64,000 nucleotides of DNA, from assembly GCA_944324405.1 (NCBI GenBank), contig CALUWF010000004.1:1-64000 (forward strand). Reading direction: 5' to 3'. This DNA comes from Candidatus Gastranaerophilales bacterium. GTDB lineage: Bacteria; Cyanobacteriota; Vampirovibrionia; Gastranaerophilales; Gastranaerophilaceae. The translations under genes and the position numbers were made by a program. The stretch's first letter is position 1. Each line of letters begins with the position of its first letter. Under the pieces are notes generated by a model. The model was not told where the DNA came from and did no database searches. It saw nothing but the letters and a program-made list of their open reading frames with translations. Shown here piece after piece: positions 53,398 to 56,445 of the stretch.

Positions 53398-56300
53398 ATG
53401 AAAATACAAAGCATAACAAATGCAACAATTAAAAGTAATTTAAAAAACACGAAAAAAACACCAAACCACTATTCTCAAATAACTCACTCCTCCCCGTATA
53501 ACAACGAACTTGGCACATTACCCGCACATTACGGCTTAAGTTTTGGCGGCGCTTACGAAATAAATAACAGAAAAAAATTTATTAAATCCCAACAGGAATT
53601 CACTCCGGAATCGTATAAAACATGGAAAAAAATAAATGCCGTAGCTGATAAATTTAATCATTCAATCATTACGCACGAGCACGTTTTTTACGCCATTTTA
53701 AGCGATATGTACAGATTTATAGAAAGTCTTGACAACGGTACAAAAAAATACGAAGACACCGCCTCTTATGTAACCCCGCAGGCATTTTCTACAATAATCG
53801 GAAGCTACGATACTTTTCAAAAAGAGGAAATAAGAAAAAAAATTAAACCCATAATTAAAAAGTATATGGCAATAACCGCCAACAGTCTGCGCAATTCGGA
53901 CATTCCCAAAAAAGGCTTTAGAGCGCCAAGACTTGCAGATTCTCTTATCGAAGATATAAATACATCCTATGAAGCCGTAAAAAGGTTGATAGGCAGTAAT
54001 TCTTTTGCTGACAATACTTTCCTTGCTGCGGTTTACAGCTGCGACAAAAAATCTTTTGAAAAAAGATTAAAAGAGTTTACATTTGAAATGCAGCGTGCGG
54101 TTATGGAAGATGATAAACCCGCAAAGCAGAAAAATCATTTGAAAATTTATGATGAAAGAGCGGACAAACTTTGGAAAAATCTGGATCTTGGCAACGATAT
54201 GTATATAACATATGAAGGAGATAATAAAGAATCCGTAGCCCACCTTTTATCAAGCTTTGTAAATTTAATTAAAAAGCCCGGGCAGAAATACAACAATTTA
54301 AACGCCGATAATACCGAAATTATAATATTTAACAACAGGCTAATTTTTGAACCGCTCAAAAAATATATTGAGATGGCAAAGAAAGACCCCTCTAAAACTT
54401 ATATTTTTGTTTTCAACTTTGCAGATATACTAGTTCAAAATTCAATAGTAGAAGAAAGAGAAGCACTGTCGCTTACACAAGAAGAGGTCGAACTGCTGGC
54501 AAACAGAAACAACCCCAATATAAGATTTGTGCTTTTCTCAAACAAAGACGTTTATTATGCAAACAGCACAGCTCCTAATTCAAGCTTGAAAAAAGTGCTT
54601 GAACAGTATGATACACTTTCTATCCCAATGATAAATGCACAGGGCGCAAAAGAAATTTTATCAAGCGACGAGGGTCTTGACTACATCAAGAATTTTATAA
54701 GCAAAACTTTTGACAAAGATGCAATTGACCTTGCCGTCAACATAACAAACGAACGCGACGGATATTATCCCGAAAAAACCATTGAATACTTAAAGAAAGT
54801 TGCTTCTTATTATATTGATAAAGAAAACATAAGCATTGAAGATGTCACTGCATATGAAGAAGAAACAAACGACGTAAGACAAACAGACGAATCTCAAAAC
54901 GAATTTCAAATTACCTTTAATACCAACAAAACCCTTGATGATATTATAGGAAGCCCGATGACAAAAGCGGAAGCGCAAAGCATAGTAAATCAGATTTTGA
55001 TGGAGAAAAAAGGCTATATAAAAGGTTTTACAACGTTTCTTGATAACGGTTCATCCTATGGCGGCGGCAGAAAACACACTGCTCAGTGCATAGCCGGAGA
55101 AGCGCAAATCCCTATGATTACGATTAACGCAAGAGATTTCGCCCTTAAAGACATTGACGCCTTAAATGCAAATGCGAATTTTTCGGAATTAAAAATAAGA
55201 AAACTCATAAATACCGCAAAAACACAAGCCGAAGCAAATAAAAACAAAACTGTTATGATTTATATTGAAAACTTTGACAATTTCGGCTCTAATCCGCTTT
55301 TTGGCATTTCGTCAATATATGAACAAAAAGCTTTCTCTCAACTCTTATACGAAATGGAAAATTTAAGAAAAAATAAAAACATAAATATGATAATAGTAGG
55401 TTCTACAAACTACCCGAATGCGCTTGATGAAAACATAATGAAGCCATATAAATTCTTGAATAAAATTATCATCTATTCTCCGCAAGACAACAAGGACAGA
55501 GGCAACATTTTTGAATATTACATAAATAAAAATAATCTCAAAGTTGGCCGCAATGAAGAAGAAAAAGCGCAAATAATCAAAAATATCTCTGAAACAACCG
55601 CAGGTTTCAGTGTTGTTGATTTAATTTATATTCTTGAAAAAGCGGATGAAATTTCCCGCGAAAGAGGCAAAGACGCAATTGACAAGTCAGACTTCACCGA
55701 AGCCTATCTTCAAACTACAACGGGCAGAGTGTCCTCAAGGCAAAACGCTCCGCATGACAGAGAGGTTATAACCTCACATGAATGCGGGCATGCACTTATG
55801 ATGCAAGTAATGTATGACATTGCCCAAAAAGAAAATAAACCCTGGCACCTGCCGGATAAAGTTAATTTTATAACCCTTGACCCACGCGGGGATTTTGGCG
55901 GGGCGGTATATTCAAAAGATGCCGAAAACGACGAATACAGTTTTGAAAAAATGTTCTCAACACTTGTTTTTGCCTTCGGCGGACATGCCAGCGAAAATAA
56001 ATTTTACAATATGCAGGGAAGCTGGGGTATAACGCAGGATATGCAAATGGCAACTCAAATTGCAAACCTTGCCGTTTTAAAAATGGGCCTTGGTGCGAAA
56101 ACTGGCAGAATTTCTCTCGGGCAAAACGCCCTTGGTGACATTAATGTGTCTGAAAGGTTGAAAAACAGAATAGAAGAAGATGTTGAAACGATGCTTAAAA
56201 ATGCGGAGCTTGCTTCGGATAAAATTGCCGATGCTTATGGTGATTTCATAGAACTCTTTACCGACAAATACAAAAGCAAAGTCGGAAGCGGCGATTGCAT

Positions 56301-56445
56301 TATAAGTTCGGAAGAATTCAACGCCATATTAAACGACTGGAAGGAAAAGCAAACGCCCGAAAAACTTCAAGAGCTTGAAAATCTTGAAAAAGAAATACTT
56401 CTTATAATTGCAAAAACCAAAAAAGGTGAAATTGTAAAAGAATAG
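53398..56445 (+). CDS. Soluble FtsH-like M41 protease with degenerate AAA modules and Clp-N-like region
   Basis: A 1015-residue protein with no membrane helix or signal. Residues 1-51 are polar and end in YGLSFGG. About 60-200 has a helical region with FNHSIITHEHVFYAIL, recalling Clp N-domains. About 260-500 looks like a decayed first AAA domain. About 510-775 aligns with the FtsH AAA module, but Walker A lysine and threonine are R558 and K559, Walker B D-E is E624-N625, and the arginine-finger region reads MKPYKF. About 780-1000 is an M41 peptidase with HECGH (794-798) and third ligand D881. ATP hydrolysis by the FtsH-type module looks lost while zinc protease chemistry looks kept. No matching named family. 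Confidence 0.85.
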   Translation: MKIQSITNATIKSNLKNTKKTPNHYSQITHSSPYNNELGTLPAHYGLSFGGAYEINNRKKFIKSQQEFTPESYKTWKKINAVADKFNHSIITHEHVFYAILSDMYRFIESLDNGTKKYEDTASYVTPQAFSTIIGSYDTFQKEEIRKKIKPIIKKYMAITANSLRNSDIPKKGFRAPRLADSLIEDINTSYEAVKRLIGSNSFADNTFLAAVYSCDKKSFEKRLKEFTFEMQRAVMEDDKPAKQKNHLKIYDERADKLWKNLDLGNDMYITYEGDNKESVAHLLSSFVNLIKKPGQKYNNLNADNTEIIIFNNRLIFEPLKKYIEMAKKDPSKTYIFVFNFADILVQNSIVEEREALSLTQEEVELLANRNNPNIRFVLFSNKDVYYANSTAPNSSLKKVLEQYDTLSIPMINAQGAKEILSSDEGLDYIKNFISKTFDKDAIDLAVNITNERDGYYPEKTIEYLKKVASYYIDKENISIEDVTAYEEETNDVRQTDESQNEFQITFNTNKTLDDIIGSPMTKAEAQSIVNQILMEKKGYIKGFTTFLDNGSSYGGGRKHTAQCIAGEAQIPMITINARDFALKDIDALNANANFSELKIRKLINTAKTQAEANKNKTVMIYIENFDNFGSNPLFGISSIYEQKAFSQLLYEMENLRKNKNINMIIVGSTNYPNALDENIMKPYKFLNKIIIYSPQDNKDRGNIFEYYINKNNLKVGRNEEEKAQIIKNISETTAGFSVVDLIYILEKADEISRERGKDAIDKSDFTEAYLQTTTGRVSSRQNAPHDREVITSHECGHALMMQVMYDIAQKENKPWHLPDKVNFITLDPRGDFGGAVYSKDAENDEYSFEKMFSTLVFAFGGHASENKFYNMQGSWGITQDMQMATQIANLAVLKMGLGAKTGRISLGQNALGDINVSERLKNRIEEDVETMLKNAELASDKIADAYGDFIELFTDKYKSKVGSGDCIISSEEFNAILNDWKEKQTPEKLQELENLEKEILLIIAKTKKGEIVKE

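Follow-up and report, generated by a model that had tools for sequence, protein, structure and literature searches.

M41/FtsH proteases are regarded as ATP-driven. What can a member of this class do when its protease site is intact and the motor residues of its AAA module are gone? The question is raised by a gene in a 64,000-nucleotide stretch of a Candidatus Gastranaerophilales genome (the window). The open reading frame singled out in the earlier note is present as described there, and its 1015-aa product is, judging from its sequence and structural model, a soluble chimera of Hsp100 and FtsH in which both AAA modules are dead and the M41 site is intact. It is laid out as follows.

53398..56445, + strand: whole open reading frame, 1015 aa from ATG, read as a soluble Hsp100-FtsH chimera (ORF reading, Pfam, AF2 model).
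53398..53550, + strand: predicted disordered N-terminal extension, aa 1-51, with the conserved motif YGLSFGG (F49) (pLDDT, conservation).
53551..54108, + strand: Hsp100 (Clp) N-domain-like helical domain, aa 52-237 (AF2, Foldseek and VIA, weak Clp_N matches).
54109..54897, + strand: Hsp100 NBD1-like AAA domain (D1), aa 238-500, without Walker motifs, P458-x-K460 lid motif kept (VIA, hhalign).
54898..55737, + strand: FtsH-type AAA domain (D2), aa 501-780, catalytic residues replaced (Pfam, FtsH fold match, alignments).
55738..56442, + strand: M41 zinc peptidase domain, aa 781-1015 (Pfam, FtsH fold match).

The C-terminal half is recognizable as FtsH by both sequence and fold. The Pfam search that the earlier note had proposed returns Peptidase_M41 (PF01434) at 786-946 with 60.1 bits (cut-off 29.9) and AAA (PF00004) at 557-690 with 40.9 bits, also above its cut-off. 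The NCBIfam FtsH model TIGR01241 reaches 134.2 bits over 554-950, far below its curated cut-off of 600. In the full-length AF2 model (pLDDT 85), residues 509-980 match the FtsH fold (3kds) with a Z score of 26.4 and 2.6 A over 418 residues; monomer prediction, likewise suggested in the earlier note, places an FtsH fold in this half and, with the N-terminal half modelled alone, an Hsp100 N-NBD1 fold there. The protein had also been described as soluble, lacking the membrane helices of FtsH and carrying about 500 extra N-terminal residues. Both points hold: no membrane helix is predicted, and the maximum 19-residue hydropathy is 1.04, compared to 2.98 in the FtsH of the same genome.

The zinc site is complete, and alignment to FtsH confirms that both of its elements are kept.

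55777..55791, + strand: HECGH zinc-binding and catalytic motif, aa 794-798 (HExGH unbroken in 98/98 distinct homologues).
56038..56040, + strand: D881, third zinc ligand (Asp in 61/61 aligned full-length members; common to active relatives).

The core of the domain (H794, E795, H798, R830, E866 and D881) is the same as in active relatives. The FtsH-type AAA domain has in turn exchanged the residues of its motor.

55048..55074, + strand: former Walker A, GSSYGGGRK, aa 551-559, R558 replacing Lys (Arg in 98/98).
55141..55164, + strand: former pore loop ([FY]VG in FtsH), now ALKDIDAL, aa 582-589 (homologue alignment).
55267..55272, + strand: former Walker B Asp-Glu, now E624-N625 (Glu at 625 in 0/98).
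55402..55404, + strand: S669, third of the fixed switches; active relatives have Ala here, just ahead of sensor 1 (comparison with active relatives).
55438..55455, + strand: former arginine-finger stretch MKPYKF, aa 681-686 (alignment to FtsH).

Alignment to solved FtsH structures sets R558-K559 on the Walker A Lys-Thr, E624-N625 on the Walker B Asp-Glu and KPYKF on the arginine-finger stretch RPGRF, as had been proposed from the window alone. The substitutions are fixed across the clade, as counted in 98 distinct homologues of the 1015-aa protein. Besides the invariant Arg in Walker A, position 625 (the catalytic Walker B Glu in FtsH) is N in 91, K in five and H in two. The [FY]VG pore loop is gone, with sequences like GTKDVDLF or ALKDIDAL in its place, and a single finger-stretch Arg survives in a few homologues (KPNRF, QRPGLF). 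The pattern [AG]x4GK[ST] is absent from 97 of the 98; the one exception, L080, has its match much further along the ORF, near residue 807. An intact Walker A elsewhere in the window protein was looked for, and there is none. Decay in a single strain, or chance, is ruled out by Arg and HExGH each standing in 98/98. Set against 25 active relatives, drawn from canonical FtsH and the soluble sisters, the clade shows a change from one conserved residue to another in exactly three well-filled columns, namely K to R558, E to N625 and A to S669. GxG and AGEA, near the former P-loop, are retained.

Is this domain, then, simply decaying? Within the genus the domains differ in their identity to the window protein: 71-84% for D2, 51-65% for M41, 51-56% for D1 and 24-44% for the Clp-N-like domain. 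D2 has a dN/dS of 0.01-0.06 in the 25 closest pairs, mostly the lowest among the structured domains, all of which lie well below 1 in the closest pairs. Over all pairs the values for D2 (0.50) and M41 (0.48) are about equal, dS being saturated in the more distant pairs and the ratios there rough. As the best-conserved domain in the genus and the one with the lowest dN/dS in most close pairs, D2 is constrained and not decaying, and constraint of this strength argues that the FtsH-type AAA domain has a function for which ATP hydrolysis is not needed. The loss of its ATPase residues, claimed earlier, therefore stands; its description as decayed does not.

The N-terminal half is not assigned by Pfam from the sequence of the window protein, whereas a fold search succeeds. 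Modelled alone by AF2, this half reaches a pLDDT of 93.5 and a pTM of 0.88, and its top 50 Foldseek matches are Hsp100 proteins only (ClpA 1r6b, E 9.9e-10). Foldseek and VIA matches cover the N domain and NBD1 of ClpA, ClpB and Hsp104, with NBD1 aligning to Hsp104 at a Z score of 18.2 (238 residues, 3.3 A). The two domains align jointly to Hsp100 over about 350 residues with a large rmsd, which suggests that they are oriented differently with respect to each other than in Hsp100. A Clp-like N domain and a second AAA domain are thus present in the model, and weak Pfam matches in homologues point the same way: among 50 homologue N-halves the best are Clp_N (six) and the Clp-type AAA_lid_9 (five), the latter passing its cut-off in the sister protein L206 (28.4 vs 22.8 bits). 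The search for Clp_N (PF02861) that the earlier note had proposed finds nothing in the window protein itself and only those six weak matches in its homologues; the segment THEHVFYAIL (aa 92-101), which the note had likened to Clp N-domains, does fall in a predicted Clp N-domain fold. The second AAA domain that it had suspected of being dead is also found, and a pattern scan detects no Walker motif in D1. P458 and K460 are invariant in 61/61 members, and hhalign comparisons with the ClpB and ClpC of the same genome place them on PDKA, the lid motif of Hsp100 NBD1. Elsewhere in this genome a 456-aa protein (G000:C5:15586-16875) matches Clp_N several times, with AAA not among the matches listed at that locus.

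The protein begins with an extension whose pLDDT is mostly below 50. Of the 57 members that are not gapped at position 49, 56 have F, and 46/61 members contain a YxISFxG-type motif, where shuffling leads one to expect 4.5. A similar start is found on the soluble sister proteins and on a few unrelated proteins of these genomes, and may be a signal, specific to this lineage, by which proteins are sorted or tagged. A disordered N-terminal extension ending in a Y[IV]SF[TGK]G-like motif is also seen at L117:1659-2375, L128:3437-4486, L129:3195-4346, L111:6782-7564, L122:4759-6180 and L146:10732-13386; the unrelated proteins that bear it have adenylate kinase, RelA_SpoT, HD_4, ankyrin and DEAD-helicase domains. 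It is not a general feature of most proteins, being clear in one of the 53 ORFs of the window, the present one.

How widespread is the chimera? The closest named records are from Candidatus Gastranaerophilales genomes (60% identity, L105), and a Candidatus Galligastranaerophilus homologue shares 54% (L108). Long matches occur in 12 of 15 genomes of the genus, some interrupted or split; two genomes have none and one a remnant. The family has the gene in 60/191 genomes and 16/41 genera. Across the class, 96 of 382 genomes match at E <= 1e-60; 93 of these read as carrying the 1015-aa type and three (G030, G363, G403) only sister types. All 93 carriers belong to families f1 and f3 of one order, and in a phylum sample of 386 genomes every match again falls in Gastranaerophilales-order genomes. 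Open frames of full length are found in dozens of species of f1 and f3. Absence from about two thirds of the family genomes and degradation in some congeners indicate that the gene is dispensable. The broken congener copies noted (L012, L086) are a G011 gene whose frame shifts between AAA and M41 and a G010 remnant without the zinc-site region. A viral origin was also considered and rejected, a scan of viral contigs confirming no relative; phage matches are FtsH-like proteins that cover about 40% of the query at about 24-26% identity.

A quick tree of AAA plus M41, without bootstrap and with canonical FtsH as the chosen outgroup, groups all 38 members sampled as a single clade (SH-aLRT 100). 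The next branch (L207, L224, L226; support 96) holds soluble proteins with an intact Walker A and an altered Walker B and pore loop, followed by L223 with intact motifs (support 93). The sequences in this tree thus describe a graded path of motif loss, in which the nearest sisters have lost half of the motifs and the more distant ones are intact. One of the near sisters, L226, has HELAH where others have HExGH. A second soluble M41 family of 750-770 aa with an intact AAA module and an unassigned N-terminal region (L208-L215) occurs in some of these genomes, and L205 groups with this type. The soluble sisters L205, L206 and L208-L215 come from the same bacterial order as the window protein and share with it the N-terminal motif and the lack of an FtsH-like N-terminus, and L205 and L206 also have a D1-like domain. 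They differ in that both Walker motifs and, in most of them, the pore loop are intact, and no Clp-N domain is found in them. In the related family f4, G363 and G423 each carry both an intact and a half-lost form, so that a half-dead copy is accompanied by an intact one in two of three genomes; L206 (intact) and L207 (half-dead) come from one genome.

What could such a protein do? The best explanation, which we consider moderately probable from sequence, models and analogy, is a ring-forming, ATP-independent M41 protease, the FtsH counterpart of LonC. An FtsH-type AAA+M41 unit would have been joined to an Hsp100 N-NBD1 unit, with ATPase activity subsequently lost in both AAA modules. The ring would form through the M41 and D2 domains, D2 probably keeping it together, while the dead D1 and D2 would act as a passive collar and the Clp-type N domain would pick or dock substrates. 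Unfolded or flexible proteins reaching the chamber would be cleaved without ATP, and judging from sequence and analogy the enzyme probably does cut proteins in this way. FtsH requires ATP-driven translocation for its protein substrates, so an M41 chamber without power may take only peptides or very loose substrates.

Could the power come from elsewhere? The protein might provide a protease ring, or subunits of a mixed one, through which an active FtsH (contacting D2-M41) or ClpC/ClpB (contacting N-D1) threads the substrate. FtsH-family members form heterohexamers in which dead subunits can persist, as in Ycf2-FtsHi motors (PMC9020784), and the fold matches are compatible with such an arrangement. 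FtsH, ClpC or ClpB could be the partner, since the genome encodes ClpC- and ClpB-like proteins and one FtsH; the strong constraint on D2 would fit as well, and the pairing of intact and half-dead soluble paralogues in f4 suits a partner role there. However, the only other M41 protein of this genome is the canonical, membrane-bound FtsH. Tallied by hand from two tables, the 93 carriers have exactly two M41 genes in 82 cases and three in 11, and in the genomes where the second gene's sequence or position was looked at it is normally FtsH. Most carriers therefore lack a soluble M41 partner driven by ATP. A conserved operon partner is rejected too, no neighbour gene being shared beyond the genus and the largest neighbour clusters consisting of generic genes in varied positions. 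Where the earlier note left "ATP-independent or partner-driven" side by side, the first is thus favoured, and a partner-driven enzyme appears unlikely.

Alternatively, the rebuilt D2 pocket may bind ATP, ADP or another phosphate ligand without hydrolysing it, and binding would open or assemble the ring. The conservation of D2, with R558, N625 and S669 fixed in or near the pocket and GxG and AGEA kept beside it, is consistent with this, and LonC binds nucleotides without hydrolysis (PMC3391209). Ring contacts could equally explain the conservation, however. Replacing the Walker Lys by Arg, with the Walker Thr lost, usually weakens phosphate binding, and we regard ligand gating as decidedly improbable. 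An unlikely variant, drawn from sequence and analogy, is that the twin-dead chimera is an ATP-independent compartment protease with a rebuilt, ligand-sensing AAA pocket; among M41 enzymes it would be the first to have given up ATP hydrolysis in favour of gating, and living relatives would preserve the steps of motif loss. That the family is a functionless set of pseudogenes is scarcely credible: several congeners (G008-G012) lack the gene or have it frameshifted or deleted, but purifying dN/dS values in every structured domain in the closest pairs, full-length frames across f1 and f3 and an invariant zinc site all oppose it. The ATP-independent ring protease remains the preferred reading.

A limited search of open-licence literature found no earlier description of this soluble, ATPase-dead FtsH-type family. 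The novelty claimed in the earlier note needs qualifying, as the same principle is already known from an analogue in the Lon family: LonC forms hexamers that bind nucleotides but lack ATPase activity, and it breaks down unfolded substrates without ATP (PMC3391209). The present family would carry this principle over to a second protease class, unrelated to the first. A clade-wide pairing of an intact M41 site with motor-dead AAA modules, one of them unusually constrained, offers a test of what AAA rings do beyond burning ATP, and the sisters with intact and half-lost Walker motifs provide a natural series from motor to scaffold.

Among known systems, FtsH, YME1 and AFG3L2 share the D2-M41 fold and order and the HExGH plus Asp zinc site; the window protein differs from them in its roughly 500 extra N-terminal residues and in having no predicted membrane helices, Walker A or B, sensor 1, arginine fingers or pore loop. 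ClpA, ClpB, ClpC and Hsp104 have the same N domain and NBD1 fold and the P-x-K lid motif. Here, however, NBD1 is without Walker motifs, an FtsH-type AAA and M41 stand in place of NBD2, and ClpP docking is not expected. Chloroplast FtsHi proteins and the Ycf2-FtsHi motor are also FtsH-family members with one half dead, but the loss is the opposite one, as the earlier note rightly held: their protease half is dead (PMC9020784, PMC8197885), whereas here HExGH is present and the ATPase half is lost. LonC (MtaLonC) resembles the window protein in fusing an intact protease domain to an AAA-like module, devoid of ATPase activity in LonC and of its motifs, clade-wide, in the present family. It differs in having an unrelated Ser-Lys protease domain and no Hsp100 N-NBD1; in the 1015-aa protein a Pfam search gives no match to the Lon peptidase domain, and the zinc-dependent M41 domain is found instead.
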